Source of the DNA: Chloranthus sessilifolius
Taxonomy: Eukaryota; Streptophyta; Magnoliopsida; Chloranthales; Chloranthaceae
Direction: 5' to 3'
Assembly (NCBI GenBank): GCA_021018995.1
Contig: CM037596.1
Coordinates: 69,295,367 to 69,359,366 of the forward strand
Length of the DNA: 64,000 nucleotides
Part shown: one piece after another, positions 6,619 through 46,905 of the stretch
Layout: each line of letters opens with the position of its first letter
Numbering within the stretch: the stretch's first letter is position 1
Notes under the pieces: model-generated
Database searches by the model: none
Seen by the model: only the letters and a program-made list of their open reading frames with translations
Told to the model about the DNA's origin: nothing
Program-made: the position numbers and the translations under genes

Positions 6619-6620
<2 letters not shown>

Positions 6621-25408: not shown

Positions 25409-25675
25409 TGTTGAGAACTGGAAAATACCATTTTCCACCCCTTAATCTGGGCCTTGATAGACCCTTGAGAGAACTAAATAAGTGTTTTAAGTGTATGTTT
25501 TACAGCTAACAATAAAGATAGGCTTAACCTTGAAAGTAGCTTAAAACTGCCAAAAAGATGATGACCCATCTGGATCTGGAGGAAGAAGGAGAAAGGACAA
25601 CCTCACGAGCTGTCAAAATACCTGAACTGAAGAGGCAAAGACCTGGTCTTAACCTAGAAAAGAAGTGTGGAGCAA

Positions 25676-25930
25676 TTCGAATAGAAGAAAGCAGTACAGA
25701 GAACTTTTCATAAAGAATTTGAACTATTCGAAAAGTTTCTGAACTTGTCGAAAAGAAGCTTAACTTTGCGAAAAGAACCAAAAGCTCCAGGTTTAGCTTT
25801 CGAAAAGCACTTGAACTCTTCGAAAGGATTTCAGACCTATTCGAAAAGAAGAGAACTCCTAGCTTAACAAAGATCGAGCTTTGCGAAATGAACTTCAGAA
25901 GGCACAGAACTCTGCGAAAAGTCCCCCAGA
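25676..25930 (+). repeat. A 5' LTR motif array (TTCGAAAAG type)
   Basis: About nine copies of the consensus GAACTNTTCGAAAAG (or TGCGAAAAG), for example CTATTCGAAAAG, TTGTCGAAAAG, TTTGCGAAAAG and CTCTTCGAAAGG, spaced about 20-40 bp. It is located about 370-620 bp upstream of the TATA box. Confidence 0.85.
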
Positions 25931-26163
25931 CTTTGCAAAATAAATTTCTGAAGATTCTTAGCATCTGCAAGGGTAATTCAGTAATCTTTTGCACGCACCC
26001 CAATGCAGATACAAACCAGGAACATTCTAAAAGATTCTGAGCACGAACCAAAGGCATATTCCACCCCATGTGAACACCCAAAGAAGAAATCACTTGGCGG
26101 GAACTTCTAGAAGCTTTAACAGATTTTCAAATTGCATAACAGAATTGATGCTTCTGTCGCTTG

Positions 26164-26305
26164 ATTGGCTGAACCAGATCGAGCAATTCTGATTGGCCAG
26201 AATAGATCTGGATCCTTGTGCTCGACTCCTATTGGCTGATATGGATCTAACCAATTCTGATTGGTTGATGCGCATCTGAAATGGACTTAGGGAAAACTAT
26301 AAATA
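26164..26305 (+). promoter_or_regulatory. A 5' LTR core promoter: four ATTGG (CCAAT) boxes and TATA box
   Basis: Inverted CCAAT boxes at 26164, 26192, 26231 and 26260, most in GATTGG context, followed by TATAAATA at 26298-26305. The same layout, mirrored, is in F. Transcription would start about 30 bp after the TATA box, near 26335, in the AATTTGGGTATCC region. Confidence 0.65.
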
Positions 26306-27289
26306 GAAGAACAATTTGCCCAATTTGGGTATCCAGATTTTGAGTTTCATTCCTATTCCCCCATTTCCAAATTAGCTAGCTTGTCTGAAACCCTTGTAAT
26401 AGCCTAACTTTTACTTACAATTGAGAGCTGTGAGATACCTCTGTAATTCAAAAAAGAATTGTATTCAAGACTACAAATCTGGGAGCTGTTTAAGCTGTGC
26501 TCTGTAATTGTAATGGTGAATTTGAAAAGGTTGCTGTAAACCGTACGTTCTCAATTAGATTCGTGTTAAGGGTTCCCTCTGATCTTCTTATTGCACTAGA
26601 CTCCTTTAGATTTACTATTTTTCATGCAATTTTCCTTGATTCATTAACCCTGTGGGAATTAGTGTTTGTAACCTAATCTCTCACAGCATTTGTAGTGATA
26701 TTTCTTATTCTGAATTAAGGGTTTAGATTAAAGACTATTGGATGGTCTGTGGCCATTGAAGTGGAAAGACCATAGCCATAAGCCTAAATCTAATCCTTGA
26801 GTTAGATTTCTTTCTCTTACATCTGTGCTTGTAGCCAGATGAAGATTGGATCATCTCTCATTTGATCTGCAGTCATTCTCATTGTGTTTCAAGGACCAAA
26901 TCAAAGTTAGATATTATTTTTCCATTTTTATAAGTTTACATCAAAATCCCCCCAACTCAGATCTGGATCATTTAGTTTAACTTTTACTGTTATCATTTAG
27001 TTAATGTGACAAATTCAACCTCCCATCTTATGTGCTTTGTAGATAGGATAAGAGGCCAGATCAGGTAGCCCAGATCTGGAGGTTTATCTTATATTTTAAA
27101 ATCAATTCCCTGTGGACGATCTTTCACTCACTTATATTTTAAAACTTGCTACAATTGGCCCTGATCTTGTAGGCTAATTGAGGTCTCTCTGTACTAATAT
27201 TTTCGTATTCTTTTAGTAAATTCATCCTCTGTAAGTCTGTTTTCAAAACACAAATAAATCATGCACACTAGACTCAGCAACAAGTTTTT

Positions 27290-27307
27290 TGGCGCCGTTG
27301 CCGGGGA
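27290..27307 (+). promoter_or_regulatory. A primer-binding site (tRNA-Asp type)
   Basis: TGGCGCCGTTGCCGGGGA, seven bases after the LTR end. This matches the tRNA-Asp-type primer site described for Athila elements. Minus-strand cDNA synthesis would start here. Confidence 0.88.
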
Positions 27308-27486
27308 ATTTGTTTTAAAATAGGTAGACCTAAGTTTTAATTTTGTTTCTATTTTATCTCAGTGCTAAACTATTCCATTGTTTAAATCTGTGCAGCTATT
27401 CATATACATTGTGATGCGTGAAATCTATTTTAAAAGGAATTTTGAAGGTTTGCTGTGCATAATTTGATTCTCTGTTCTGTGTTGTA

Positions 27487-28894
27487 TGTCTGGTAGGAGG
27501 ACTCTCAGCCCTGAGATAATCCCGCTAAATTTAGAAGTAGAAAGGCTACTACGAACCAAACAACAAAGACATGTAATCAACAAATTGAAGAACCTCGACT
27601 TTTGAGGGATTACTTTGCACCTGGTGCTTATAATTCTCCATTTTGCATTCAATTTCCTACTGTTGAAGGAAATTATGAGAACAAATCATCAACTATCCAA
27701 ATGCTTCCTTTCTTTTATGGTTTGAGTAAGGAAGATCCATATAAACATGTGGATGAATTTTTGTCTCTTTGTACCACATTCAACATAGCTGGACTGGGTC
27801 CAGAGGCAACTAAGCTTAGGCTCTTTCCTTTTTCATTAAAGGACAAAGCTAGACCATGGTTGTCTATGTTGGCACCAAATAGTATCACTTCTTGGAATGA
27901 TTTGCAGTGTCAATTTTTAGCCAAATACGTCCCTATGTCTAAAACAAGCCAATTGAGACAAAGTATTATTTCCTTCTCACAAAACTCAACTGAAACTTTC
28001 CATGAAGCATGGGAAAGGTTTAAGGAACTTTTAAGGCAATGCCCTCATCATCAAATTCCCCGATGGCAGCTTGTTCAAAGCTTCTATCAAGGAATTGATC
28101 AAAAGGGCAAGAATATGGTAGATGCTTCCTATGGAGGTACCTATTTGCAAAAAACAGTTGAGGAGGTTTGGGACTTATTTGAAGTAATTGGTGAAAATTC
28201 AACTCAACAAGAATCTTTATCAAGAGACATTGAGAATCCTGCTCGGATGAACAATCAACAAACCACCAAAGGAAAGATTTATGAGGTGAATGAGTTGGAA
28301 AGAAAGATGGATAATTTAACCACAAAGTTTGATATATTGATGGACTCACTTAAAAATTCAATGGTTGCAAGAGTAGAGGAGGCATGTCTGATATGCCAGT
28401 CCCCTACTCATTCACTTGACCAATGTCCCGCTGCACCACAGTTCCCAGATTTAGTGGTGGAGTAAGCTCATGCTGCCCAATCATTGGGACAGATGCAGTC
28501 AAATGAATATCCATGGAGAGGGCACCCCAATTTGAGGTGGAGCCAGGGGAATTATCAATCACAACAGTAGCAGCAACCAAAGAACCAAATGCCTTTCAAA
28601 AATGCTCAGCCTTATCAGCAGAATATTTATGCCAAGCCAAATTTTCAGCAGCCCATTCCACAATAACCTGTACAGCAATCTACTCCAGTCCAAGCACCTT
28701 CCAGATCCCCTTCTTTTGAAGATCAAGTCCTAAATTCACTCCAGAATTTAGGATCTTTAACTCAGACTGTGAACTTTCACAGTCAGAGCATAAAGAAGAT
28801 TGAAGAAACATTGGGTCAACTTTTAAATACTTTGGCCAAAAGAGAGGAAGGAAGGCTACCCAGCCAACCTTTGAACAATCCCAAATGACAGTTC
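27487..28894 (+). pseudogene. A gag
   Basis: The native start is the ATG at 27487 (MSGRRTLSPEIIPLN), matching C gag (MFGRRTLQSQIIPLN). A frameshift between about 27540 and 27600 moves the frame to that of the open stretch 27602-28465. The retrotransposon gag domain is seen there (GLSKEDPYKHVDEF, LFPFSLKDKARPWL, AWERFKELLRQCPHH, LVQSFYQGID), then a CX2CX4HX4C zinc knuckle (CLICQSPTHSLDQC). In-frame stops follow at 28463 and about 28568, 28665 and 28887 before the protease region. Gag would form the particle that packages element RNA; this copy cannot make it. Confidence 0.88.
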
Positions 28895-30138
28895 ATGGTT
28901 GCAAAGGCTTCTATTTCACATGAAGAAGTAAAAATTATCACTACTTTGAGAAGTGGAAGAATTGTAAATAACAATGTGGGTACTGATAAGGAAGAAGAAA
29001 AAATTGAGGAAACTGCTAGAGATATGCAGCAGGAGCAGCATGATGTTAGCATTGGGGATGCTGATATACCTCAGAAAAATCAAAAAAACGAAAAACAGAA
29101 AAATAAAAAAAATGCTAATGATGATTCTAGAGTTGTAAATGAAGGACTAGTTCCTCATTTACCATTTCCTCATGCCATGAAATCTGCTTCTCCTTTTGAT
29201 AAAAGAAACACAAAAATAGAGGAAATGATGGAGACTTTCAAGCAAGTCAAGATAAATTTACCTTTGCTTGATACAATCAAACAAATCCCAGCATATGCAA
29301 AAATTTTGAAAGATATTTGCACTCACAAACGACAATCTAGGATACAATTATCCAAGAAAGTCTTTGCTGTAAAAAAAGTTAATCAGGTTTTGTCCATTAC
29401 CACACCTCCTAAACTTCAAGATCCTGTAACCCCCACAATCCCTTGCATTATTGGGGAACATACCATTGAAAAGGCTTTATTAGATTTGGGTGCTAGTGTC
29501 AACCTACTTCCATATACTGTATATGAGAAACTAGGTTTGGGAGAATTAAAACCCACTCATGTGGTGTTACAACTAGTAGACAGATCTGAAAGAAAGCTAG
29601 TTGGGATGATTGAGGATGTGTTGGTAGGGGTAGATAAGTTTGTCTACCCTACTATTTTCTGGTATTGGACATGGAACCTACAAAAAGCAAAACTGCCATC
29701 CCTGTCATTTTGGGAAGACCATTTCTGGCTACAGCCAATGCTTGCATTCAATGCAGGTCTAGTATTATGGAAGTCTCTTTTGAAAATATGAAGGTGAAAT
29801 TAAATGTTTATAATGCAGTCACACAACCTCAATTCAGTTCTGAGGAATGTTTTCTTGTTGATTTATTGGATGAATTGATGGAAGAGACTCTACCACAGTT
29901 TTTACAGTGTGAAGATTTTACCACAGACTTGAAAAATGCTTGGAAAAATGCTATGGAAGAAATGATCTGTACCTCAAATTCTGAGGAAGCAAATGTTGTA
30001 CAAGGAACTCATAATCAATCAGCAAGTTTCTCTTCATGGAAACCTGTTATTCTTCCTCTTCCACAAACAGCTAAGGTACCTTTGCTACCTTGTTTTCTCA
30101 GCCCACCTAATGTAGAATGTAGAAATATGTGTTTTTAG
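28895..30138 (+). pseudogene. A protease region
   Basis: Two overlapping frames, 28895-29791 and 29665-30138. The first has a Lys-rich linker, EEMMETFKQVKINLPLL and the aspartic protease loop ALLDLGASVNLLPY, then GMIEDVLVGVDKF. A frameshift near 29655 moves the rest (VILGRPFLATANACIQCRS and the linker to RT) to the second frame. The protease would cut the gag-pol polyprotein. The layout is the same as in B and C. Confidence 0.85.
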
Positions 30139-31640
30139 GAGACCATAAATCATTGCCTGTGATTATTTCTTCCTCCCTCACAAAGAAGCAGGAGGAAGAG
30201 CTGTTGATTGTATTGAAATAGCATAAGAGGGCAATTGGTTGGACTATTGTTGATTTGGGAGGAATCAGTCCAGCTGTTTGTATGCATAAAATCCATTTGG
30301 AAGAAGATGCAAAGCCTTCTAGGGAAATGCAGAGGAGTTTGAACCCTCATATGCAAGAAGTGGTCATGAAAGAAGTTGTTAAGTTGTTGGATGCAGGGGT
30401 CATTTACCCAATTTCAGATTCAGCTTGGGTGGCACCTACACAGGTGGTACCTAAGAAATCTGGGATCACTGTTGTAACCTCAGATTCTGGTGAGCTTATG
30501 TTAACCAAACAAACAACTGGTTGGAGGGTCTGTATTGATTACAGAAAATTAAACTCAATGACCAGAAAAGACCATTTCCCTCTCCCATTCATTGATCAAA
30601 TTTTAGATAAGCTAGCAGGAAAAGCCTATTACTATTTTCTTGATGGTTACTCTGGTTACAACCAGATTCCTGTGTACCCACAAGATCAGGAAAAAACCAC
30701 ATTCACTTGCCCTTTTGGCACTTTTGCCTATAGGAGAATGTCTTTTGGTCTTTGTAATGCTCCTGCTACCTTTCAAAGATGCATGTACTCCATTTTCTCT
30801 GACATGATTGACCAATTTATGGAGATTTTTATGGATGATTTTTCAATATATGGAGACAGTTTTGCCCAGTGTTTACATCATCTCAACTTGGTGTTACAGA
30901 GATGTGAAGAAACCAATCTAGTTTTGAGCTGGGAGAAGAGCCATTTCATGGTCACCCAAGGCATTGTCCTTGGCCATGTTGTCTCCCACAAGGGCATTGA
31001 GGTGGACAGAGCTAAAATTGATTTAATTGCACATTTGCCACCTCCTAAAACTGTTAAACAAATCAGAAGTTTTCTGGGGCATGCTGGATTTTACAGAAGG
31101 TTCATTAAGGACTTCAGTAAAATTTCCAAGCCTCTTTGTCATTTATTATGTCAAGATGTCCCTTTTGTTTTCAACAATGAATATTTGAAGGCATTTGAAT
31201 TCTTAAAAAATTGTTTGAGTTTAGCTCCAGTATTACAATCTCCAGATTATTCACTGCCTTTTGAGCTAATGTGTGATGCATCAGATTATGCTTTGGGAGC
31301 TGTTCTTGGGCAGAGAAAGGATAAGCTGCCTCATGTCATAGCTTATGCCAGTAGATCAATGATGGATGCATAGCTCAATTACACAACAACTGAGAAGGAG
31401 CTATTGGGAATAGTTTTTGCTTTGGAGAAATTCAGGTCATATGTTTTGGGTTCACAAATTGTGGTGTTCACTGACCACTCAGCCTTGAAATACCTTCTGT
31501 CTAAGAAGGATACCAAACCAAGATTAATCAGGTGGATCCTCCTATTACAGGAGTTTGATTTACAGATTAAATATAAAAAGTGTGTGGAAAATGTGGTGGC
31601 TGACCACCTGTCTCGAATTATAACTGCTGAGATTGATAGG
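30139..31640 (+). pseudogene. A reverse transcriptase and RNase H
   Basis: Frame 30255-31373 holds RT: WRVCIDYRKLNSMTRKDHF, YYFLDGYSGYNQI, GLCNAPATFQRC and the FMDDFSIYGD catalytic box, followed by the [16 protein letters not shown] connection and the first RNase H motif ([12 protein letters not shown]). A TAG at 30219 lies in frame just upstream. A second TAG at 31371 replaces the Gln of the usual [12 protein letters not shown]. RNase H continues in 31404 onward with [10 protein letters not shown] and VADHLSRI. Apart from the stops the catalytic residues are present, so the damage is light. Confidence 0.9.
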
Positions 31641-32990
31641 CTACCTATCAATGAATCTTTCCCTGATGAGCAACTTTTTACTATCAGTATACACACCCCT
31701 TGGTTTGCAAACATAGTCAACTTTTTGGCTACTGAAAGAATTCCTCAACATTGGAATAAAATGGATAAAGACCTTTTCTTCTCAAAGGTTAAGCATTTTA
31801 TTTGGGAGGATCCTTATCTGTTCAAGATTTGTGCAGACCAAATAATAAGAAGATGTGTCTCTGAAGAAGACTTTCATCACATTCTTTCTATGTGTCATGA
31901 GCAGGCTTGTGGAGGTCATTTTAGTGGAAATAAAACTGCTGCAAAGGTTTTACAGTGCGGATTTTATTGGCCTACACTTTTCAAAGATGCTCTGCAGCAC
32001 TGTAAGACTTGCCAGAACTGCCAGAAATTGGGCAGCATTTCTAAGAGAAAATCAATGCCATTACAGCCTATTTTGGTAGTTAAATTGTTTGATATTTTGG
32101 GGATAGATTTCATGGGCCCCTTTCCTCCTTCAAATGGTTGTAATTTTATCTTAGTAGCTGTAGATTATGTATCCAAATGGGTTGAAGCCATAGCTACTCG
32201 AACCAATGATCATAGAGTGGTTTTGAAATTTTTAAAGGATAACATCTTTTCCAGGTTTAGTTCCCCCAGAGCTATTATCAGTGATGGGGGAAGCCATTTT
32301 TGTAATAAGCATTTTGAAGCTTTATTGAAAAAATACTTTGTGACTCATAGAGTAGCTACTCCATATCACCCACAGACCAGTGGGCAAGTGGAGATTTCCA
32401 ATAGAGAAATCAAACATATACTGGAAAAGACTGTGAGAAAAGACAGAAAGGATTAGTCTTTTAAACTGAATGATGCATTGTGGGCATACAGGACAGCTTA
32501 CAAAACCCCAATTGGTATGTCCCCATTCAGATTGGTCTATGGCAAAGCATGCCATTTACCAGTGGAGTTAGAATATAAAGCCTTTTGGGCTATTAAATCA
32601 TTGAACATGGATCTGACTACTGCTGGTAATCACAGGAAACTGTAGCTTGCTGAGTTGGAGGAGCTGAGAATGGATGCATACACCAATTCAAGATCTTACA
32701 AAGAGAAAGTTAAAGCGTTCTATAATAAAAATCTGCTAAGAAAAAAATTCATAACTGGCTCCAAGGTATGGTTATTCAACTCAAAACTTAAGTTTTTTCC
32801 TGGGAACCTGAGATCCAGATGGGAAGGGCCATATACTGTCATTCATGCAGCTCCTTCTGGGGCTGTTGAAATTTTGGATCCAAGTGATGGGAGAACTTTG
32901 AAAGTAAATGGTCAGAGGCTCAAACCATGCATTGAAAATACCCTGGAGCCTGTGCTGACTATCTATCATCAAGAACCTCCCCAAATCTGA
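31641..32990 (+). pseudogene. A integrase
   Basis: This has the zinc-binding N-terminus ([24 protein letters not shown]) and the core with [20 protein letters not shown] and [12 protein letters not shown] (the D, D and E residues are present). TAG at 32454 replaces the Trp of RKDW, which is a G-to-A change. A second TAG at 32643 replaces a Gln. The C-terminal part reopens at 32655 and ends VNGQRLKPCIENTLEPV at 32990. No chromodomain is visible, as usual for Athila. Confidence 0.9.
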
Positions 32991-33712
32991 TGGTATACAA
33001 CTGTACAATATGTTTTTATTCTGTAGTTTTTGCATAGCTTTCTTTTTCTCTATTTTTCGTCATGTTTTTTTTTTTTTTCTCTCTTCGAGAAGTTTAAATA
33101 TGTGAAAAATTAATTCGCAACGTAAAAATTGTCTTTTCGCAAAGTTTACTCTGCTTTTCGAAAAGGATCTGGATCTGTAACGAACTGCTCGAAAGCAATG
33201 ATGTGCTTTTCGAAAAGTTGTTTCTGAAGCTATTTGCTTTTCGAAAAGTTATTTCTGAAGCTATTTGCTTTTCGAATAGTTGTTTCTGAAGCTATTTGCC
33301 TTTCGAATGGTACTGATGCCATTCTCTTTTGTAAAAAGGACTGTTTTGAACTTTTCGAAAACTTAAAAAATTACTTTGCGAAAATAATTTTGAATATATT
33401 TAACCCTTTCGAAGGATAGGTTTCAGTTTCAAAAAGCCCTCCAGAGCGTCTTCTTTCACAGAAAACCCATTTCGTTTCCATCCTTGCGCCCTTTCCAAGT
33501 TCAGCCTCAATTTGCTTCATATTTGTTCAACGGATTAAGCTTGAAGGGGGGGACTTTTTGCTTCTGATTCTAGCGGATTTCATCAAGCGGACATCAAGTT
33601 CAATTAAAACCCTAGATTTTGGTATTTCTCTGTGCATTTCCTCTATTTCTGTTTTGCTAAGTTAGAAATTGATATCAGCTTTCATTTTGGGAGATTCAAA
33701 GAAAGATTTTAA
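32991..33712 (+). promoter_or_regulatory. A spacer between integrase and ORF3, with TTCGAAAAG array
   Basis: Noncoding. From about 33110 to 33420 it carries at least eight TTCGAAAAG-type motifs, the same variant as the A LTR, including a regular 31-bp tandem repeat at 33205-33311. No convincing TATA box is seen before the ORF3 start at 33713. Confidence 0.65.
33205..33311 (+). repeat. 31-bp tandem repeat containing TTTTCGAAAAG
   Basis: Units start at 33205, 33236, 33267 and 33298, the last partial. Each has the palindromic CTTTTCGAAAAG (or GAATAG) followed by GTTTCTGAAGCTATTT. This is the only part of the array with regular spacing. Confidence 0.9.
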
Positions 33713-36223
33713 ATGGGGAAAGCTGAAAAATCACTGGCTGCCATGTTCCCCAAATCTTCTGCTAAGAAAATTATCAAACCAACCCCAAAAGGAAAAACCA
33801 AAACCTCAGCCAAAAGGAAACTATCAATGGATAAAGCTGATAGGATTGAGAAAGGGAAGAAGGTTAGACATGAGTAACCCATCCCAACAGCTGCAACTAG
33901 TCCTGAGCCTGAGCTTCCTCCTCTGCCTATGCATTTGGTACTGCCAAATCCATTCATTGAAGCTCAGAAGCTGATTCCTGAGCTTATTGTTGATGAGAAC
34001 TTTTTCTCCAACAAACTGGAATTTCAGCTATCTTTAAAATACATGCGGGATGCCTCACTGAGCAATATCCTTACCCCTCTGTCAGAGAAAATTTATCCGT
34101 GAATGGTGAGATTATGGTACCAAAACTTGGGAAAAGTGACAGAAAAGGATGCTGATGTCCCTACTCTGGTTATTTTTATTGATGATTGTGATCTAACTGT
34201 CACATATGAAGACATTGGGAATGCTTTGGGGATACCTTTTCAATATGAGCCTGCTAGTCCATTGGCTGCACCAGAAGCAGCCTCTTTCAGAGAAATGGTT
34301 GCACATTTAACCCAAGGGATAGTTGGAACTGGACAATCCATAATGAGGAGAGACTTAGCACCTCAATTTTTACTGATGGATTCAATTTTGAGGGGATGTT
34401 TTTATGTCACGGGGCACAACCAGGAAAGAAGGACACCAATTTTAGAAGCTCTCTTTTATTTTTCTAAGGGGCAATTTTTCAATGCCCTTATGTTAATTTT
34501 TGAAGCCATGGCTGATATTAGTGCCAAGTTAAAAAAGGAGCAGAAATTAGCTGGAATCCCATTTGGTAGGCTGATCAAGCCCTACTAAGAGCTAAGTTTG
34601 ACATTGATGACCAGGAGCCATTTGAAGTTATATCTCCTCATACTTTTGGGAAAAAGGCTTAGACTACAAGCCAAGCAATGTTGAACAGAATGAGAGAGGA
34701 AGGTGAGCCTGCACCTGCAGTTGCTACTGAGCCTGCACCTGCAGCTGCTATTGAATCTGCCGTACCAGAACATATCCCAACAGCTGACATTGAACAAGCT
34801 GTCCTTCCTGTGGTGACCAGCTCTTCAGCTGCACCCATTCTTGAAGAAGTTGTCCTTCATGTGGTGACCAGCTCTTCAGCTGCACCCATTCTTGAAGAAG
34901 TTGTCATTTTACCCTCCTCACCTAGCCCAGCTCTTCACCCTTCACCCATTCCCATAACCACCATTATCCCAATTGCAGACTCCCCCTCTACACCAACCGC
35001 TCCAGCCATACTCACACCACCAATTTCTCCCAACAATGCCCAAGACATGGCTACAGATTTTATTGAACAATCTCCTAGCACTCCTCTTCTCCAAAGCTTC
35101 TTAGATTCACCTGCTCATTCAGCTCATACACCTGAAGTAACTCATACCCTTGAACCTGATATTTTCACTACAGAGGCTTATTCATCATTGATGGGGTCTA
35201 TTTTTGAAAACATTGGGCTTGAATTTGTACCTATACATGCCCCTCCTCATTTCACTCATTTGGCTACTTCACCTTTTACAACCATTTCACCCATTGCACC
35301 TCAACCATCTACTTCAGTTATGCCAGCCCCTACTGTACATACCACACCCATACCTGAGTCAATTAGCCAAATACTTACCTTTCTCCAATCCATTCAAGCA
35401 CAACTACAGATTAACACAGACAATCAGTCTGTGACAAATGCCCTTCTCCTAACCTTAGCCTCCTCATCCCACACAACTACCTTTTCCACTGTACCTGCTG
35501 TTGATAGCCATGCTACCCAAACCGACCCTAAGGTAGTATTTGTTGATCCACCCACCATCACCACTACTAGCCATGCTACCCAAACAGAACCTGAGGTAGC
35601 TCTTGTTGAGTCCCCTTCACCTCTCCTCACTTTCTCTGATCAAGCCAATCAGACAGACCCTGAAATTATTCTGTTGGATTCCTCTTCTCCCATTCCCACT
35701 GCTGGGATACCTTTGGTCCCCTACCACTCCATTCCCATTCCCAGATTTGCTGCCCTCAAAAAGGCTATGGAAGAGAACCCATATATTCGTCGTGATGTCA
35801 TAAAAGGGTTAGCTGATTTGCAAGCTTACATTAGAACCCCTTATGAGAACCAAATTCGGAAATTAGAGTTGTTCATGAAATTTGAGAGAGAGAAAATGCA
35901 GGACTTCTTTGGGTCAAACTTTTCAGATGGTTAGGAGTGAGCAGCACAAGGTGACCATGTTGCAAGCACAGCTTGAACAGGAAAAACTGAGGACTACTAG
36001 ACTTGGAAAGTGCATTGGCCTCACCAAAAAGATCAAATCAGAGGATTACACTGAGCTGCAAAACACAATCCAGGAGAAGGCTAAATCGAGTTCAGACTCC
36101 ACTACTGACTCTAGTTACCTCAAGGACTCCGATTCGATCCCATTGAACCAACTTATGATACAGATTTTGACCCCAGTTATTAGATCACATTGTACTTATC
36201 TGTGTTATGAGTTTGTAATATAA
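33713..36223 (+). pseudogene. A ORF3 (plant transposon domain, Pro-rich linker, TQT repeats, coiled coil)
   Basis: ATG at 33713 (MGKAEKSLAAMFPK) followed by a Lys-rich NLS-like stretch (KPTPKGKTKTSAKRK). Stops occur at about 33875 and 34100. The domain at 34103-34588 (IFIDDCDLTVTYEDIGNALG, AHLTQGIVGTGQSIMRRDL, YFSKGQFFNAL) matches the domain known in databases as putative plant transposon protein. A frameshift near 34582 leads to the frame 34678-35934: a Pro/Ser/Thr-rich linker with a 51-bp repeat, three TQT-like motifs and NPYIRRDVIKGLADLQ. A last frame change near 35900 precedes a coiled coil (QLEQEKLRTTR). No signal peptide or membrane segment. Function unknown. Confidence 0.75.
34801..34902 (+). 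repeat. 51-bp in-frame duplication in A ORF3
   Basis: Two near-identical 51-bp units (34801-34851 and 34852-34902), coding for VLPVVTSSSAAPILEEV and VLHVVTSSSAAPILEEV. The length is a multiple of three, so the frame is kept. Confidence 0.9.
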
Positions 36224-36347
36224 AATTCTGATTTTTCTTGTGTTAATCACTAATTACTGTGCATTTCTGTTCTTTCTTCTTATCATTATGATTTAATTGA
36301 TTGTTTTCTTTTCTTTTTCTTTCAGACTCAAAGGGACCCCGCCACCA

Positions 36348-36367
36348 TAGCTTTGGGGGTGTGGCAG
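36348..36367 (+). promoter_or_regulatory. A internal polypurine-tract-like site
   Basis: TAGCTTTGGGGGTGTGGCAG, about 125 bp after the ORF3 end and 1.58 kb before the true tract. It differs from that tract by a few bases and keeps the GTGTGGCA neighbour seen in B. Confidence 0.7.
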
Positions 36368-37749
36368 AAATGTCAATAATTGAGTTAACATCAATGCAGC
36401 TTATGATCAGCAGAATTTTATTTTTGAAAATGAAGTAATTTCACACCTGTTGTTTTGAAAATGAGGAAGTTGAAATTTTGCTTTTAAAATTGATTGATTT
36501 CTAGTGTAATTCTAATACTTTCATGAAGTGAATGTCAGAAAATTTCCAAAAGAAAATTGATGTTGTAGTAAACCTAAAAAGAGAGAAAACAGTGATGATA
36601 TACTTCAGGAATTTGATAGAAAACCACACCCAGTGAGATTTGGGCCTGCAGAAATGTATTCTTTGGAGGTATGAATTGGCAATTTTTTCTGCTCTTGGGA
36701 TTGTTTGAACCTGCTTATTTTCACTAGAAGTTAGACATATTCAAATTGAAATAACTTGACAGCAATCATGATATTAAAGACATGATGTAAGGCCTCCTTT
36801 GGAGTTTTGAACTTCAAAAAGCCCCACCTTTTAAAGCGCCCTTGATACACACCATTTGAGCTTTATAAATCTAAGATTTCTTTGAAACCTCATCAAATAA
36901 CCTCATCAACCTCATTTAGCCTAACCTCACTCGAGAAGTCAAGATAAAGGAAGCTGAAGAAAGGAGAATTGAGTAACAGTTTGATAAAAGAAGAAGAATC
37001 ATAATTGAAGGCAATGATGTATCAGCAGAAGAAATGTGGCATTCCAGTCAATGTTACTTTGAAAAAAAAAAAAAAAAGGAGAAGGCATTTCATTGGAAGT
37101 TTGAAATAGAAAGAGAAAAAGATGGCCACTTTGGCTCTGAAAATTCAAAGAAGAAGATGAAATTGTGCTGAATTGAAGAAGGTGTGTCTATCACCTCCTT
37201 ACCTTGACTGACTTCTCAATTTTGAACTCCATTCCACCCCTTTATTCTTGATAAATGTCACCCATAAGCCACATTACAACCCAAGTAAAGTCCTTGCTGA
37301 TCAATGGTGGATTGAGCTGTCACATGGAGATAAGGATTTGTGTAATCTATGGTGAAAAGAGCAGTGAATTCAGAACTAAAGAGCAATGCCTACGCTCATG
37401 CTTACAGTCCTATTTGAGGGCTGTAACTGCTCTTGAGCCGTGTGAAATAGTACAACCCTCTTATTTGCATGATGAGTGAAAATCCTGGAGAGAGTTGGGT
37501 TTGAAATCAACTCATTGGGGTAACATCAAAACTGAATTCTCAAATAAAAGGCAAGCTTTTCATTAATTTTTCTTTTAGAAACTTTTTGACACAAATCAAG
37601 TGAATGGTAAAAGAGTTATAGCAGAATTTCAGTTTTGAACTGATGTTTTCGTGAAAATCCTCTTATAACTTGACTGATGTAGGTGTGAATAATCTGATTG
37701 GATGAAAATCTGTTTTAATAGAATTGCATTGATCTTAACTGATTTATTG

Positions 37750-37875
37750 GAGAAGTTTGTGGGTACCTTCACTGAAAACCCTCAGGAGACTTTACTCCTC
37801 CACTAGGGATCACCTAGGGGTTTAAAAAGCTTGTTGCATATGCTAAATGCAATCGTGCTCCCTACAAAAGTGGCT
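37750..37875 (+). other. A copy of the conserved block beside the polypurine tract
   Basis: GAGAAGTTTGTGGGTACC, CTCAGGAGACTTTACTCCTC, CACTAGGGATCACCTAGG, GCTCCCTACAAAAGTGGC; about 50 bp upstream of the polypurine tract. Same block as in B, C and E. Confidence 0.7.
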
Positions 37876-37923
37876 TTTTACTTTGTTTTTTAATTTTGTC
37901 TTTGCTCAGGGACTAGCAAAGCT

Positions 37924-37937
37924 TAGGTTTGGGGGTG
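37924..37937 (+). promoter_or_regulatory. A polypurine tract
   Basis: TAGGTTTGGGGGTG immediately before the 3' LTR start TGTTGAG. Confidence 0.88.
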
Positions 37938-39756
37938 TGTTGAGAACTGGAAAATACCATTTTCCACCCCTTAATCTGGGCCTTGATAGACCCTTGAGAG
38001 AACTAAATAAGTGTTTTAGGTGTTTATTTTATAGCTAACAATAAAGACAGGCTTAACCTCGAAAGTAGCTTAAAAGTGCCAAAAAGATGATGACCTATCT
38101 GGATCTGGAGGAAGGACAAAGGACAACCTCACGAGCTGTCAAAATACCTGAACTAAAGAGGCAAAGACCTGGTCTCAACCTAGAAAAGAAGTGTGGAGCA
38201 ATTCGAATAGAAGAATGCAACTCAGAAAGTGCTTTTCGAAAAGAACTCGAACATCGAAAAGAAGCTTAACTGCGAAAAGAACCAAAAGCTCCAGGCTTAG
38301 CTTTCGAAGAGCACCTGAACTCTTCGAAAGGATTTCTGACCTATTCAAAAAGAAGAGAACTCCTAATGTAACGCCAACTTTGCTAAAAGAGCTTGAGTTA
38401 CAAGAACTTGCTAAAAGTCCCAAACTATGCGAAATGGTATTCTGAAGATTCCTAGCATCTGTAAGGGTAATTCAGTAATCTTTTTCACGCGCCCCAATGC
38501 ATTTAAAAACCCAGGGACATTCTGGAAGATTCTGAGCATGAACCAAAGGCATATTCCACCCCATGTGAACACCCAAAGGAGAAATCACTTGGCGGGATCT
38601 TCTAGAAGCTCTAACAGATTTTCAAATTGCAGAACAGAATTGATGCTTCAGTCGCCTGATTGGCAGAACCAGATCGAGCAATTCTGATTGGCGTAACAGA
38701 TCCGATCCTTGTGCTCGACTCCCATTGGTTGATATGGATCTAACCAATCGATTGGTTGATGATCTCAAATGACTTAGGGAAAACTATAAATAGAAGAACC
38801 ATTTGCCCAATTTGGGTATCCAGATTTTGAGTTTCATTCCTATTCCCCATTTCCAAATCATTTGTCCAAACCCTTGTAATAGCCTAACTTTTACTTGCAA
38901 TTGAGAGTCGTGAGATACCTTCGTAATTCAAAAGAGAATTGTATTCAAGACTACAACCGAGAGTCGTTTAAGTCGTGCTCAGAATTGTAATGGTGAATTT
39001 GAAAAGGTTGTCAGAACCGTACATTCTCAATTGATTCATGTTAAGGGTTCCTCTCGATCTCTTATTGCACTAGACTCCTTTAGATTTACTATTTTTCATG
39101 CAATTTCCCTTGATTCATTAACCCTGTGGGAATTAGTGTTTGTAACCTAATCTCTCACAGCATTTGTAGTGATATTTCTTATTCTGAATTAAGGGTTTAG
39201 ATTAAAGACTATTGGATGGTCTGTGGCCATTGAAGTGGACAGACCATAGCCATAAGCCTAAATCTAATCCTTGAGTTAGATTTATTTCTCTTATATCTGT
39301 GCTTGTAGCCAGATGAAGATTGGATCATCTCTCATTTGATCTGCAGTCATTCTCATTCTGTTTCAAGGACCAAATCAAAGTTAGATATTATTTCTCCATT
39401 TTCATAAGTTTACATCAAAATCCCCCCAACTCAGATCTGGATCATTTAGTTTAACTTTTACTGTTATCATTTAGTTAATGTGACAAATTCAACCCCCCAT
39501 CTTATTTGCTTTGTAGATAGGATAAGAGGCCAGATCAGGTAGCCCAGATCTGGAGGTTTATCTTGCATTTTAAAATCAATTCCATGTGGACGATCTTTCA
39601 CTCACTTATATTTTAAAACTTGCTACAATTGGCCCTGATCTTGCAGGCTAATTGAGGTCTCTCTGTGCTGATATTTTCGTATTCTTTTAGTAAATTCATC
39701 TTCTGTAAGTCTGTTTTCAAAACACAAATAAATCATGCACACTAGACTCAGCAACA
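37938..39756 (+). mobile_element. A 3' LTR
   Basis: TGTTGAGAAC...CAGCAACA, 1819 bp. The motif array at 38205-38440 is shorter than in the 5' LTR, with several copies lost or shrunk. TATA box at 38785-38792 and hairpin block at 39215-39258. Between about 38620 and 39065 it differs from the 5' LTR by many small changes, nearly all at CTG sites (often CTG in one and TCG in the other, or loss of one or two bases), whereas the flanking sequence is almost identical. Confidence 0.95.
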
Positions 39757-39761
39757 GCAAC
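39757..39761. repeat. A target-site duplication, right copy
   Basis: GCAAC, identical to 25404-25408. Confidence 0.95.
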
Positions 39762-41153
39762 CGGCTGGCAGGACAACTTCCCCTCATCTCTCCTAGCCAA
39801 GGCATTTGAAATTATACTTATCTGCTCTTCCATTTCATGGATGCTCTGACTGTGAGAGCATCCAGTCTAAGCCAAGGACCTCAGGTTTTGCAATGAAGTC
39901 AAGACCTGGTCCTCGAAAGAAGTATTTCTGGGTTGAGATGGGGGTAAGACCAATTGATTTTATTGTTGATGGGGCTGCTGCTGGTGTTGGAAAATAGACC
40001 TAGGGGCATATCCCTGATTGAATTGCTGTTGTGGCCTTTGGGGCTGCATATAATTGTCTTGCCTCCACCTCAGATTTGGGTGGTCTCTCCATTTGTAACC
40101 AGCATTTTGGTGCTGGTATCCAAATGGTTGTCTGTTGTAGCCACCAGATTATTGCGGGCCAAAAGATTATGCAGCAGCAGCATGTTCCAATATCAATTCA
40201 GGATATTGCCCTACAGATGGACATTCCTCTACTGTGTGTTGTGGGGACTGGCATATCAGACATGCCTCCACCACTTAAGCAGCCCTTCTAGGTTGCATCA
40301 CAGTCAATAATTTGTCAAACTTCTCTGAGAGGTTTGCCATCTGCAGCTGCAGATCGTTATTCTCAGACACCTGACTAGTTCTTGTCAGGGATAGCTTTTG
40401 AAAAACATTTTTATTGATTACTTCAAACAATTCCCATGCCTCATCAGCAGTCTTGTGCATGTAGGTTCCACCACAAGAGGCATCAACCATATCTCTATTT
40501 TTCTCATCAATCCCATTGTAGAAGCTTTGTACAAGCGGCCAGTCTTGGATCTTGTGGTGGGGGCATTGTTTGAGCATTTCCTTAAACCTATCCCAGGCTT
40601 GATTAAAATCTCTGGCCATGGATTGGGCAAAAGCAAGAATTTCCTTCCTCAACTGGCTAGTTTTGGTCTCAGGGAAGAACTTTGTCAGGAACTTGGTCTG
40701 TAGGTCTTTCCACGAAGTGATGCCATTGTTGGAAAGAGTAGCCAACCAGGTACTAGCCCTATCCTTTAGAGAGAAGGGAAAGAGCCTGAGCCTAGTAGCC
40801 TCAAGTCCCAAACCAGCGATATTGAATGTGGTGCACAAGGCCAAGAACTGGTCAATGTGCTTGTAAGGGTCTTCCTTGCTAAGCCCATGGAAAGAGGGCA
40901 ACATTTGGATGATTGAAGTTTTAATTTCATAATTCCCTTGAACATCAGGGAATTGAATGCTAAATGGAGAGTTATAGTCATCCGGAGCATTCAACTCCTT
41001 GAGAGTTAAGGGTTGTTCTTCACCCATGGCTACTGTCTCAGATTCAATTGGAGGCTCTACTGTGGTGTGCCTATTCCTTCTAAGTCTTCTACCCCTTTCT
41101 AGCTCATGGTTGAAAGGCTCCAAAGTGGGACTAAGAGATCTCCTACCTAGCAT
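39762..41153 (-). pseudogene. B gag
   Basis: I take the start as the ATG at 41153 (MLGRRSLSPTLEPFN), by analogy with A and C, rather than the in-frame ATG at 41192. The gag domain follows: GLSKEDPYKHIDQF, LFPFSLKDRASTWL, AWDRFKEMLKQCPHH, LVQSFYNGIDEKNRDMVDAS. A stop at 40275 cuts the frame just before the zinc knuckle (CLICQSPQHTVEECP), which is still readable. Further stops follow. The sequence then runs to the A insertion at 39761 and continues as protease at 25408. Confidence 0.88.
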
Positions 41154-41486
41154 ACAAACACACCACCAGCAGGGACAACTCCTTCCAGGCACATTGCAAT
41201 TGACTCAAAGAATTTATCTAACAAATTTACAGCTATTTAAGAAAATATAAATTTACAACTATCCTAAATAACTGCTATGAAATTTTCAAAGAAACTAGAC
41301 TGAGTTTTAAAGGTTAGAGAATTGCAAACAGAGGTAGCTAATCTCCAAATGCTGTCCACTATCCTTCTCTGCTGCTGTCTAGATCTGCAAGAAAGATTCA
41401 AAATTACATCAGCAGTATCAATTATTCACAGCTACAAAGAATACTAAAAATATAAAAACTAAGGGTCTACTAATAGATCATCTTAT
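41154..41486 (-). other. B leader between primer site and gag
   Basis: Untranslated leader; no gene. It probably contains packaging signals, but none can be recognised. Confidence 0.5.
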
Positions 41487-41503
41487 CCCTGATAGCGGCG
41501 CCA
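41487..41503 (-). promoter_or_regulatory. B primer-binding site
   Basis: TGGCGCCGCTATCAGGG on the minus strand, six bases after the LTR end. It is like the A site but with CTATC in place of TTGCC. Confidence 0.85.
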
Positions 41504-41509
41504 AAAACT

Positions 41510-43836
41510 TGTTGCGATTCCCAGTGTGCTTACTTTATTTGTTGGTGGTAAAAGCAATTTAAAATCAAAGTAAAACAGGGGATGGAATCAGCACAACTGA
41601 GAAATCCTAGACCTACAAGATACAGGGTTCATTTGTAGCAAGTTTTGATAAGTAAGAGTTTGTCCCATAGGGAAAAGTGATCTACGGCTCCAAGGGAGCC
41701 ATCTCTAGTAGTCCCTCCAGATCTGACCATAGATCTGGCAGTCCTAAAAGGAAGGGAGTTTAGGGTCACTTATTCTAAATATCCTAAGGTAGCCTAATGA
41801 ATTAACTACAAAAAGGGTTGAAGATGGATGGAGTGTGGGAAAATAAATATAAAAGGGTGAGAAGTATGCTATTGGGTCTAGATCAGAGGAGTTTTGTAAC
41901 TCAGATTCAGATATGATGTTATAGAAATCCTGTCCAATGGCTACATTATCACCACTGAGGAGAAAAAATCTAACCCATCTCTGTGCCATGATCCAATCCC
42001 TTAAGGCTATAACCTGTCCACTCAAATGGTCACAGACTATCCCATAGGGTAACCACAGTCCAGAGATGGGTCAAAACAAGTTAATTATTGTAGGCACTAC
42101 TTCATCCAGGCTACAATCTCAAGAATCCATAGGGAACCTCAACCTCTAAAGCTCTATTTATGGGGCTAGGGCTGTATAGGACCATGTTAGCCCTGACACA
42201 TAGAACCAGCAAGGGATTGAGTACAACCTTCGATCTAGCTATCCATTGCTTGAGTGGGACTACAATGGTCCAGTCACAAGCCTACAATCTCCATAACCAG
42301 ATCAGATCTAACATCTGATGGCGGGTCTATACAAATATAGGGGAGTCTACCTCTGTACAATCTCCCACAAGGCTACAAGCACATGTGCAGAGAAAAAGAA
42401 TCCATCTTGGATCCTACGGATTGGCTTCACCTTAAGGCTATAGCCTGTCCACTTGAATGGTCACAGACTATCCCAGAGGCTATCCTCCTCATAGAGTCCA
42501 AAACATAATAGTAATATTGCTGCCACCACCATGGTCACAAGGCTACCAGCTCAGGCTCCCATGGGGATTTCAGATCTAGTGGGTCCTGTGGTGGGGCTAA
42601 GGCTGTATCGGACCATGATAGCCCAAACACACAGGTCACTTGGATCTGAATGGATCCTTAGAATCAGTCCTCCATTGCTTTGAATCACCGCCAAAGCAAT
42701 GGCGGATCTCAAGGCAGCAGCCTTGCACGGAGCAACTCGCAAACACACGAATCCCATAAAAGTACAACACCCAATCACAAATTTCATTAATCTAATCTCA
42801 ATAAACATACATAGGCATGGCCAGCAAGTGCTGGGCCATGGATAGAAAGAAAAAGAAAAAGGAAAACTACTTACAACTACAGAAGAACAAAAAAGAAAAA
42901 GGTCTCAGATCCCATATCAGGGATAAAGTCTGGACTCTTCTGGCCTCCCAAACCTAAACTAGGCTTTGGTTTATATAGCAGTGGTGTGGCGGCACATTAG
43001 GGTTAGTGCACGGAGATTTGAGCGTGGGAGTGCGTGCCCTAATCCTTAGAAATTTTCAGAAAGTCCTCTATTGAAGCGATGGAAGGTTAAAGTTCAGAGC
43101 TTCGCTAGGTAGCCATCGTTTCCCAGACTTGTCGCGTGGTAGCTCTGTTCTTCAGGTGGTTGACTTTAACTCTGAAGCTTCAGCTGTCGCGAGGTTGGTG
43201 TGCTCTCGCTGGATTGAGCTTCGCGAGGTTGGGTTGGAATAGCGCAGGAACTGCGCGAGCATCACTCTAATAGATCCTCGCGAGGCTTTAATAGTTTTTG
43301 AGCTGCGCGATAGTCCATTTCTTGATAGATCTTCGTGTGGATCCTCGCGATAGCTTTAAGGCATTTCTGAACTGTGCGACAACTCCTTTGATGCTTTGTA
43401 TCTCGCGGCAACTGGGCGGCAGCTGTGCGACAACTTTCCTGAAGCTCTCTTGAACTGCACGAGACTACGCGACCTTTAACTTCTGAACTTCGCGAGAGCT
43501 GTGCGACTCAAGGCTTCTGAAGCTCTTCTGTCACTCCACTGCGCGAGAACTTCTCGTGAAGTCTTGGGGAACGTAGCGAGGATTGCACGAAGCCTAAATT
43601 CCTGAATCCTTTAGAGCTTTGTCAGCTGCGCGAGGCTTACCTCAGGTCTGGATTCATGGCTCATTCTTCTGAGGGACTTCTGGTGCCAATCATGGGTTCC
43701 TTAACAGGATACCTAGCCTTATTGTACTGCTGTTTATTACCTACAAAAATAGCTTAACAAACATTTATTAAAGGGCTAAGGGTCTAATCACAGGTTAAGT
43801 TAAGGGATGAAAAGTGGTACTTTTCAGGTCTTAACA
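41510..43836 (-). mobile_element. B 5' LTR
   Basis: 2327 bp, same ends as the 3' LTR with small differences at the inner end (GCAACA versus GTAACA). It lacks the 93-bp duplication and has a deletion of about 85 bp near 43006 relative to the other copy. TATA box at 42970-42977; CGCGAG array at about 43075-43650; hairpin blocks at 42000-42046 and 42432-42476. Confidence 0.93.
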
Positions 43837-43841
43837 GGAGG
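43837..43841. repeat. B target-site duplication, right copy
   Basis: GGAGG, identical to 16033-16037. Confidence 0.9.
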
Positions 43842-46137
43842 TGGTTGAGTTGTAGAAGGGGCACAGGAGTGAGTGGAAGGAGGTGCAGGAGGAGGTGCGG
43901 TGGCAAGAGGGGTAGGTGGAAATGGCTGAGAGGTAAGGGAAGCAACCTTTTTCTCCAATATGTCAATCTGTTTGGCAGCATAGAGCAGGTTGGCATCAAA
44001 GAGTTTTTTGGTGGCCTTGAGTATCTCCTAAGCATTGGCTAATTTTTTCTTGAGAAGCTCAGAATTCTTCTTCTCATATTTGGCAATGAGACTCTCAGCA
44101 GCTGCCAATTGTTTTGCTGACTCATAACGAGTCAGGATTTCAGACCACCCTTGAGAGATATCGCGGAGTTGAATTCGGTGTTCCAATTCGATGTTGGCAA
44201 TCCTCTCCTCATAAGGGGCCTCAATGGAAGGTCGGAGTGCAGCCATACCTCTCAGAACATCCCTGTGGATGTAGGGGTTGTCTCTCATGGTATACAATAG
44301 GGTGAGGTAGGGGGGTATGTACATGGATTGTCTAAGGACAATGGGCAAGGACAAGGGGGTAGTGGATGAAGAGGAGGGGGTGGAAAGAACCAGATCATCC
44401 CAAGGATCAGTTTGGGTAGAGGCATCCTGGAAAACAGGTGGGGGGGTGGTGAAGGGTAGAGGGGATTCAGCTACTACGGAGGCCAGTAAATCTGGGGAGG
44501 AGGGTAAAGTGGCCTGTGGTGAGGAAAGTATGGGGGGAGCTGGTGCGGCTACTTCCTCAGGCTGGGGTAAGTATAGGTGAAGTAGGAGGGGATATGTGAG
44601 GGGGTTGAGGAGCGGAATAGGATGGGGTAAGGGTGGATTGAATTGATTGGAGACATGAGCTCATGAGGGTCTGGTTGTTGGTGTTGATAGTTAATTTGGA
44701 CTGAATGGTTTGGAGGAGGGATAGAATTTGAGTGAGGGTGTTAGGCATGGTTGGGGTAGAAGGGGCCGGTGTTTGGACATGATGGAAGGGGGAGGAGGGT
44801 GCATGGTTAAAATGCTGAGGAGTGGGGTGTGGGGAGTCAGGAAGTGGAGTGTAGTCATGAGCCACATCCTCCACAATTGAGGTCATGAGGGCGGTGATGA
44901 ATAGGTCCACGCCCTGTGGATGCATAGGGGTTGGGGATGGGGGGAAATTAGAATTAGTTTGGGTAATGTGGGGAGAAGAAGTTGTATCAATCCCTCTTCC
45001 AAACGGAAAAAGTAAAGTGGGTGGAGGGGTATGTAATGGGACAGGTATTGTAGGTAGAGGGGTGGATAAGGGTATCTCTGCAGGAGTCTCTGCTGCCACG
45101 GTAGTGGGTGCCTTCTCAGCCGCCTCCCTTCCAACTGGCTGACTCTTCTTAATCAAGGTGAGGCTGGTTGACCATTCTCGCTTTCCATACAATTTAAAGG
45201 TCAGCTTCTCCATTGGTTCATTTTGCTTGATCACATATTTTCCAGTCTTGAGCAAACATGTGATGAGTCTACAAAAAGGCAAACCTCCTCCTTTAGCAAA
45301 AGCTTGCCTCTTCAGCACCTCGTCATTGATGTCCACCATTGTTTTAAAAATTAGCTTAGGTGCATTCACAAATTGCCCCTTTGAACAGAAGTATAGTGCA
45401 TCCACTAAAGGGGCCCTTCTCCCTTGCAAATGGCCAGAGACGTAGACATTTTTCCTCAGAATGGTATCGATGAGTCTGAGGGTAGGATTGAGGTCTCTTC
45501 TCATCAAGGATTCACCAGAGCCCACGATTCCATTAGTAAGCTGTTTAGCCATTTCCCGAAATGTAGCCCCTATAGGTGCTCCCTCAGCTCTAGTGGATTC
45601 AAATTGCTGTGGGACTCCCAAAGCCATCCCAATATCTCTGTAGTCGACAGTTAGCTGCCAGTCATCAATCAAGATTTCTAGTATATCCTCAGCCCCAAGT
45701 ACCGATTTCTTTGTCAAGTTTTGGTACAACAATTTGACCAACCTGTGGTAGACATTTTCCTTTAAGGGTGAAAGTTGGGGTAGTAGACCTTCTTTCTTCA
45801 AATATTCCAACGTCCCCTGACACTCCCCAATGTTAGCAAAATACGCCAGATCAAAATCCATCTCAGGAACAAGACTCAATTTTTCTACAAACTCATTGGG
45901 GGTAGTTAACCTTGCGCTTCATCGAGGAGTAGCTCTCGCTAAGTTTTCTTCCACTACAGGCTCCTGAATCACAACAGCTTTGGCCTTCTTAGCTTTAGGA
46001 GCCTTTTTGGGTGTCATCTCAGTGAGCTTCCTCTTGACAGGTAGTTTGTCAACAAGCTTTGACCTCACGGAAGATTTGGGAGTGGAAGCAGTTGCTCTCC
46101 GGCGTATGTTTGCTAGAGTTTCCTCCGGCTCATCCAT
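43842..46137 (-). pseudogene. C ORF3, main part
   Basis: ATG at 46137 (MDEPEETLANIRRR). An NLS-like region comes first (KLPVKRKLTEMTPKKAPKAKK), then a TGA near 45917. The frame reopens and 45879-44557 holds the plant transposon domain (ILIDDWQLTVDYRDIGMALG, QLTNGIVGSGESLMRRDL, YFCSKGQFVNAPKL) and a Pro-rich linker with LTQILSLLQTIQSKLTIN. Further on come an ASTQTDPWDD motif (near 44420), NPYIHRDVLRGMAALRPS and a coiled coil (44354-44028). B inserted at 43836/43837; the C-terminal tail is at 15562-16032. Role unknown; a nuclear protein is suggested. Confidence 0.75.
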
Positions 46138-46439
46138 TTTACTCTCAGAGACTAGTCACTCACCAACTTGGAGTGGAGCTTGAAGGTTAAAAATTAGAGA
46201 AATGACAGATTGATGGTGGAAAGGCAACTGACCTCGAAATGCCTAGGGTTTAACAGAAATTGCAATACACAGGTTCAATTTTTTCAAAGTCAGGGGAAAA
46301 ATGCTCCTTTGTGCAAGCTAAATGTACTGAAAAATGGCAGATTGAACAACTGAAGGTTTTGTGAGGATTTAGTGGAGAAAGAGGGAGGAAAAAGAGAGAG
46401 GAAAAGAGCTAGGGTTTTGCAGAAGGTATGGAATGAGGC

Positions 46440-46820
46440 ACAAATGACCTAACGACAGGTATATAAGGGGTGGAATACGATTCCGATAGGATGAACTGGA
46501 TGGTCTCGATAGGTTCATGCATCCCGTCAAAAGCATAGCAGACAAAACCTTAAAAGGGGATGATTCGATAGGATCCCGATAGGTGGAACTATCCTTTCGA
46601 TCAGTTTAAACGGCAGCTGAGTCATCATTTCGATAGGTTCCCGATTAGTATCTAGAACCTATCAAAATCTCCGTTTTGCTCTTTTTAACCGATCGAGAAG
46701 TTAATTTTGCATGTCGAGAAGTTCAGTGCCTATCGAAACCATCGAACATCCTGCCGAAATCACCATGTGACCTATCGAAAGGTGAACTTGACCTGTCGAA
46801 GACTTCTAAAAACCAAATAA
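46440..46820 (-). promoter_or_regulatory. C pre-ORF3 spacer with TCGATAGG array
   Basis: At least ten motifs of the C type (TTCGATAGG, CCGATAGG, CTATCGAAA, CTGTCGAAG) lie upstream of ORF3, the same variant as in the C LTRs. A TATA-like site (46460-46467) sits at the ORF3-proximal edge, so the order array, TATA, ORF again resembles an LTR U3. The stretch 46138-46440 between it and the ATG is noncoding. Confidence 0.65.
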
Positions 46821-46905
46821 GGCCGTATTTCTGGGCACTCGCAGTCTCAGTTCCTAGCAGGCTCTGTTGATGTGGTGCCCCATGATTTGATTCTCTTGTG
46901 AACAA

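Follow-up and report, generated by a model that had tools for sequence, protein, structure and literature searches.

Matched CpG motif arrays in the long terminal repeats and pre-ORF3 spacers of Athila-like retrotransposons in Chloranthus sessilifolius

A 64,000-nucleotide stretch of the Chloranthus sessilifolius genome (GCA_021018995.1, contig CM037596.1, positions 69,295,367-69,359,366, forward strand), referred to here as the window, is a nest of Athila-like long terminal repeat (LTR) retrotransposons in which element A lies within element B, and B within element C. Each of the three carries two arrays of short CpG-centred motifs, one upstream of the TATA box in the unique 3' (U3) part of the LTR and the other in the spacer ahead of ORF3, the place of an extra sense-strand open reading frame (ORF) between pol and the 3' LTR. 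The two arrays of an element share one motif variant, and the variant differs among families. The elements presumably belong to the Athila lineage, a name that we assign from structure and primer site.

LTR and spacer arrays of one element share a motif variant

Four core motifs (TTCGAAA, CTCGCG, TATCGA and GTCGAC) were counted in 12 regions of the window and compared with 2000 dinucleotide shuffles, whose means were at most 0.8. The resulting table of core counts is near-diagonal. TTCGAAA occurs 5 and 4 times in the two A LTRs, 11 times in spacer A and once in the A-like F LTR; CTCGCG occurs 10 and 9 times in the B LTRs, 10 times in the LTR of element E and 3 times in spacer B; TATCGA occurs 7 times in each C LTR and 5 times in spacer C. 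The own-variant count exceeds the shuffles (p<=0.0025) in the LTRs of A, B, C, E and I and in all three spacers (counted over 33050-33420 in A, 20770-21012 in B and 46450-46850 in C), while the single TTCGAAA of the F LTR (1-964) does not stand out (p=0.17). The CpG observed/expected ratio (o/e) is 0.53-1.66 across the 12 regions versus 0.31 in the window as a whole; since the own-variant excess is measured over dinucleotide shuffles, it reflects more than CpG richness, and chance or CpG richness alone is ruled out.

The arrays occupy corresponding positions in each element. Element A (plus strand; LTRs 25409-27282 and 37938-39756) has TTCGAAA-type U3 arrays at 25678-25915 in the 5' LTR (TATA at 26298) and at 38132-38372 in the 3' LTR (TATA at 38785), and its spacer array at 33058-33420 contains 11 TTCGAAA/TTTCGAA matches. 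Element B (minus strand; 5' LTR 41510-43836, 3' LTR 16038-18537) has CTCGCG-type arrays at 43193-43634 (TATA at 42977), 17882-18248 (TATA at 17604) and, in the spacer, 20835-21005, the last with its three core sites. Element C (minus strand; 5' LTR 49987-52138, 3' LTR 11673-13803) has TATCGA-type arrays at 51208-51862 (TATA at 51125), 13027-13527 (TATA at 12810) and, in the spacer, 46453-46840. Arrays are also present in the 3' LTR of E (60079-62594), of CTCGCG type at 61842-62392 on the minus strand, and in an LTR of element I, which ends near 9018, of GTCGAC type with some TATCGA at 6936-7400 on the plus strand.

The same assignment emerges when the CpG contexts of the spacers are fitted to models of the LTRs. 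With the three spacers assigned to their own LTRs the fit gives z=6.6, a value that 0 of 20000 permutations reached, and of the 6 possible assignments the correct one scores highest. Spacer B, with just 3 core sites, fits the E model (1.09 bits) slightly better than the B model (0.88 bits), because B and E have one variant in common. Sites occur in both orientations and mostly have dyad symmetry around the CpG core. The longest string common to a spacer and its own LTR is 15 bases in A, 10 in B and 13 in C, and the other spacer-LTR pairings reach 9-11 bases, so that a long spacer-LTR duplication is ruled out.

These data bear out an earlier note on this DNA, which had placed arrays upstream of the U3 TATA boxes and described spacers A, B and C as carrying the variant of their own LTRs beyond chance: the arrays are so located in both LTRs of A, B and C, and the motifs are commoner than in shuffled sequence. 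Its claim that all sites share a RAAC[C/T]T frame followed by NTCGA or NGCGA is wrong, since just 26 strict sites stand against 284 CpGs in 11 arrays, with none in spacer B or the A 3' LTR; a fixed frame at all sites is thereby rejected. The assignment of variants to families held in part: A, B/E and C are distinct and GTCGAC is confined to the I LTR, but the I array is mixed, with 5 GTCGAC, 4 TATCGA and 1 CTCGCG.

The match recurs in other elements of the genome

Beyond the window, in a genome of 2.17 Gb in 32 contigs, the commonest motif is identical in spacer and LTR in 28 of the 31 scored elements (31 of 34 rows). Random association of LTR and spacer variants, which the earlier note named as the outcome that would count against it, was sought in these copies and not found, although most of the extra copies belong to one family. 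The independent units are five motif classes, each with at least one matching pair: three in Athila and two ahead of other ORFs of the PF20167 family, one of these Ty1/copia. For the latter two classes (S1 and S2) the cores were set after the sequences had been viewed, as were the limits of some regions.

The largest sample is of C. A genome search with C ORF3 scored 93 of 64626 first-look candidates, and 20 loci of 10 kb were taken from these. All have a CpG-dense spacer approximately 550-1000 bases ahead of the start of the ORF3 match and, wherever an LTR was found, a second CpG-dense stretch in the first kilobase of the 3' LTR. TATCGA is the commonest core in both spacer and LTR of 16 of the 16 usable pairs, which constitute one family. 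Relatives whose ORF3 identity is 77-93% retain the sites in spacer and LTR alike. Four loci were left out of the pair count: L012, L019 and L023, which lack a usable LTR of their own, and L015, whose spacer is mainly C-type and whose LTR at 2902 is B-type. The latter was taken as a nested insertion because the other C LTRs start near 5600 and B sits in C in the window.

A search of the genome for PF20167 broadened the sample beyond C; 150 of 13856 first-look candidates were scored, 19 ORFs were hand-picked from those 150, and arrays were found upstream of 16. Six of the ORFs belong to Athila family G (L031-L036), whose spacers carry CTCGCGAG arrays, some decayed. Three G LTR stretches were fetched to accompany these six spacers; L049 was excluded as another element's LTR, and the remaining two (L047 and L048) have the CTCGCGAG core of the G spacers and LTR starts resembling that of E. 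Class S1 comprises eight upstream stretches with CGGACGTCCG palindromes, and one S1 element (L037/L045) is a copia element by the reverse transcriptase (RT) match in its upstream stretch (RVT_2, 231.4 bits in L045); its LTR (L046) has four CGGACGTCCG sites immediately ahead of TATA. Class S2 (L068-L071) comprises two elements, at C7:31388646-31391346 and C7:137740455-137743155, in which TCGATTAATCGA and TCGATGCATCGA are densely arrayed on both sides of the PF20167 ORF, in the spacer and in the region of the LTR. No LTR was fetched for L032, L034, L036, L038, L039 and L042, and one A copy (L029/L030) is unpaired.

Three elements do not match. L040/L053 has no LTR core, only a degenerate site; L043/L050 has no spacer array, copia pol lying directly upstream of the ORF with the spacer apparently deleted (by eye); and in L044/L052 the LTR stretch departs from the S1 family after approximately base 283. 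On the reverse strand of L052, bases 800-1400 hold a dense TCGACTAGTCGA-like palindrome array, an apparent insertion into the S1 element and possibly a further motif class.

The I elements differ in organization. They measure approximately 6.4 kb from LTR to LTR (L060, L061 and window 6500-9018), with a gag remnant in L061 (by eye), and U3 arrays are present in L060, L054, L056 and L058. The internal regions of L060 and L061 contain no second array and no ORF3 among frames of at least 90 codons. An autonomous partner was sought between LTR pairs 11-13 kb apart (L055, L057 and L059), where there is no GTCGAC spacer array; these stretches look foreign or nested by CpG content.

A candidate internal promoter follows the spacer array

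Spacer arrays are often followed by a TATA-like box. TATAWA occurs at bases 681-800, after the spacer array, in 17 of the 20 C-family loci, against a background of 3.4% of 680 windows of 100 bases taken from bases 1301-4800 of the same loci. In the window, C has TTATATACC at 46458-46466 (minus strand) and its ATG at 46137. B has TTTAAATAC at 20708-20716 (minus strand), 80 bases ahead of the ATG at 20636 of a short reading frame in ORF3's place (20388-20636), and thus retains array, TATA-like box and ATG despite an ORF3 cut to 82 codons. Among the six G spacers, three have TTATAAA after the array.

ORF3 and the PF20167 family

By domain order, with RT and RNase H ahead of integrase, A, B and C are Ty3/gypsy rather than Ty1/copia elements. 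The gypsy order of A runs from gag through a weakly matching protease, RT and RNase H to integrase, whereas B retains gag, RNase H and integrase, with RT matched only at E 0.084. The extra sense ORF is present by position in A (33713-35934, plus strand; frame broken, with open pieces 34103-34588 and 34663-35934) and in C (44557-46137, minus strand; frame broken near the start, with an open piece 44557-45918), and both are PF20167-like. Elsewhere in the genome, six G ORFs score 54.6-56.9 bits and the L037 ORF 63.7 bits, above the curated cut-off of 45; L008, an A copy, reaches 35.3 bits (E 1.3e-8) and L012, a C copy, 23.7 bits, both under it. Athila ORF3 and non-Athila ORFs match one Pfam family, some Athila ones weakly, and PF20167 ORFs stand behind arrays in Athila G as well as in an element whose RT is of copia type. 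A genome search with PF03078 gave no match, and its controls had none either.

ORF3 is under purifying selection. Across 21 C-family sequences, broken copies included, 208 pairs give a ratio of nonsynonymous to synonymous divergence (dN/dS) of 0.21 for the conserved region, and 210 pairs give 0.49 for the tail. C-family frames, including one of 827 residues (L014), have by eye a Lys/Arg-rich N terminus, the conserved region and a Pro/Ser/Thr-rich part, and the L014 C terminus appears coiled-coil-like. A-family ORF3 is abundant genome-wide (39093 first-look candidates), and in most of the 150 scored A copies a 159-codon stretch is stop-free at 90-94% identity.

A proposed two-promoter mechanism

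When a non-homologous LTR and spacer carry one variant per element, and that variant differs among families, the simplest cause is one factor per family; the place of the arrays ahead of TATA boxes points to transcription. The earlier note's proposal of cis sites coevolving with a trans factor is supported on its cis side, in sites that agree between LTR and spacer of an element and differ between families, and the further copies extend it. As that note held, the pattern suggests that each family has a single trans factor, encoded by the host or by the element.

We tentatively favour, at confidence just short of evenly balanced, a reading in which the spacer is an internal promoter with the enhancer of U3, and the likeliest trans factor is the product of ORF3 itself, a PF20167 protein acting in positive feedback. 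Every ORF3-bearing family would then have two promoters with one common enhancer. The U3 promoter, an array followed by TATA, would drive genomic RNA, and the internal promoter in the pol-ORF3 spacer, an array followed by a TATA-like box and an ATG, would drive an ORF3 mRNA. A single trans factor would read both arrays; were it the PF20167 protein of ORF3, positive feedback would result, a dimer could readily read the CpG sites, which are mostly palindromic, and motif variants would follow changes of the ORF3 protein. Four components are inferred: that transcription starts in the spacer, that ORF3 binds DNA, that feedback operates and that the variants track the protein. We prefer ORF3 as the factor on two grounds: one ORF family stands behind the second array in gypsy and copia elements alike, and all families in a genome meet the same host factors although their sites are different. 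The purifying selection on ORF3, its Lys/Arg-rich N terminus and the lack of a second array in the two I internal regions, where no ORF3 is seen, also speak for this reading.

Several observations weigh against this reading. In A, the internal TATA candidate (TATATTTAA at 33395, with the ATG at 33713) is weak and lies inside the array. One C spacer is a mosaic that speaks against strict matching (L016, with CGCGAA-type sites at bases 350-510 ahead of TATCGA sites), and L015 would be a mismatch if the LTR at 2902 were its own. No array lies upstream of 3 of the 19 PF20167 ORFs (L039, L042 and L043), and the 3' region of the I elements is related to G, yet its motif differs. Within the window PF20167 scores fall below cut-off, at 16.3 bits (E 0.0092) on the A piece 34103-34588 and 20.9 bits (E 3.7e-4) on C ORF3, and two of the four Athila ORF3 frames scanned (L014 and L003) have no match at E<=0.01. 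Two ORF3 structure predictions gave no usable fold (predicted local distance difference test score 35), and a PDB profile search returned two matches at E 0.16, none of note.

The same two promoters could instead serve the host, each family having taken up binding sites of its own particular host transcription factor, with ORF3 as no more than the gene that is driven. We consider this unlikely, albeit deserving of serious attention: arrays ahead of TATA boxes resemble ordinary enhancers, stress elements known from plants and listed in PLACE are matched by Sirevirus motifs (PMC2829016), and DNA binding by ORF3 is putative. Against this, at least five motif classes occur in one genome, alike just in their CpG core and mostly dyad symmetry, and would require as many host factors; that ORFs of one family follow the second array in both gypsy and copia elements would then be coincidence.

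An anti-silencing role, as for the VANC proteins of VANDAL transposons, would have ORF3 bind the arrays and remove or block DNA methylation, with promoter activity secondary. The family-specific arrays in noncoding parts resemble the VANC case (PMC5735166), and CpG has been retained in the arrays of otherwise CpG-poor elements; the arrays nevertheless stand immediately ahead of a TATA box or ORF rather than being spread over noncoding parts, and we judge this account improbable. A passive origin, in which functionless products of slippage or conversion were copied between LTR and spacer, is very improbable, for although A and C share the longest strings with their own LTRs and B-type sites could enter a C spacer (L016), pairings of different elements reach similar lengths to B's own 10 bases, sites occur in both orientations, and both arrays persist in diverged relatives.

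Comparison with known systems

The two-array layout is already published for Sireviruses (Bousios et al. 2010, PMC2829016). Sireviruses feature element-specific short CpG motifs in two places, ahead of the TATA box in the LTR and immediately 5' of the env-like gene; the motif is the same in the LTR and linker of each element, linker copies are absent when env is absent, CpG islands are described, and an internal promoter for env was proposed (PMC2829016). The likeness extends to A, B, C and other elements, in which an array upstream of the LTR TATA is accompanied by a second array 5' of the env-like ORF, and to the I elements, which have no visible ORF3 and no second array, as in env-less Sireviruses. 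Sireviruses, however, are Ty1/copia, and 12 of 13 have a CGG-CCG palindrome core (PMC2829016), whereas the arrays described here are also found in Ty3/gypsy Athila elements with TTCGAA, CTCGCGAG and TATCGA cores, the spacer array is followed by TATA-like boxes, and the ORFs behind the arrays are of a common family. The CGG-CCG palindrome core, which the Athila cores lack, is present in class S1, which probably belongs among the Sireviruses. For Athila itself, the paired-array layout was not found in searches of open-licence literature, outside which subscription papers mostly fall.

VANC had been named in the earlier note as the best precedent, and the comparison of layout is fair: VANC targets are short motifs, particular to each family, that crowd the noncoding DNA of the element and differ between related families (PMC5735166). 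VANDALs, by contrast, are DNA transposons, whereas the window elements have LTRs, gag, RT and integrase; VANC binding and hypomethylation have been shown, and the VANC motifs, found in introns and between genes, all point the same way (PMC5735166). Sirevirus motifs and foamy virus Tas are closer. Foamy viruses have an LTR promoter and an internal promoter, and both contain response elements for a single transactivator, which the virus itself encodes and expresses from the internal promoter (PMC12789967). They are animal retroviruses whose internal promoter lies within env, and Tas activity is established (PMC12789967), whereas that of ORF3 is putative. By analogy, the foamy virus internal promoter and Tas would fit the two-promoter layout better than VANC does.

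Accessory genes of plant retrotransposons offer further parallels, among them gene23 of Grande, reportedly described by Gomez-Orte et al. in 2013. Like ORF3 it lies between pol and the 3' LTR; it has a promoter of its own and its product is nuclear, but it is antisense to gag-pol, and the available part of the source makes no mention of LTR-matched arrays (PMC7264820). Extra ORFs are found in both Grande and Retand (PMC7264820, PMC11963269). Sunflower Athila 14 has a sense-strand extra ORF of PF20167 similarity and a predicted nuclear localisation signal; motif arrays and an internal promoter are not mentioned in the accessible text (PMC11728184). In Arabidopsis Athila, the tested ORFs are under strong purifying selection, and the assigned expressed sequence tag (EST) rows comprise 10 env, 5 gag and 0 pol (PMC2410132), which is mild support because ESTs can favour 3' ends.

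Further features of the window

Element D retains a CTCGC array remnant followed by TATATAT at 5147 (5147-5215, minus strand), ahead of an ORF3 tail; the remnant is related to the family G spacers. Further CpG clusters, at 1835-2140 and 10647-11116, consist of imperfect inverted motifs, TATATACGCCCAGC-like and GCGCAACTATTAGTTGCGCC-like, in other elements.

Implications for the env-like gene of plant retrotransposons

The function of the env-like gene in plant retrotransposons is usually discussed in terms of an envelope. Given arrays that match, a probable internal promoter and a conserved ORF family common to two superfamilies, it becomes a question of binding and reporter activity, with own versus foreign arrays as a built-in control. 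The env-like gene may make a switch protein rather than a viral coat. It is possible, if somewhat doubtful, that the env-like ORFs of Athila and of at least one copia lineage form a homologous PF20167 family of sequence-specific self-activators, in which the protein and the CpG arrays of two promoters coevolve and keep retroelement families apart. If ORF3 is indeed the factor, LTR retrotransposons would possess a cis-trans recognition system comparable to VANC or foamy virus Tas.

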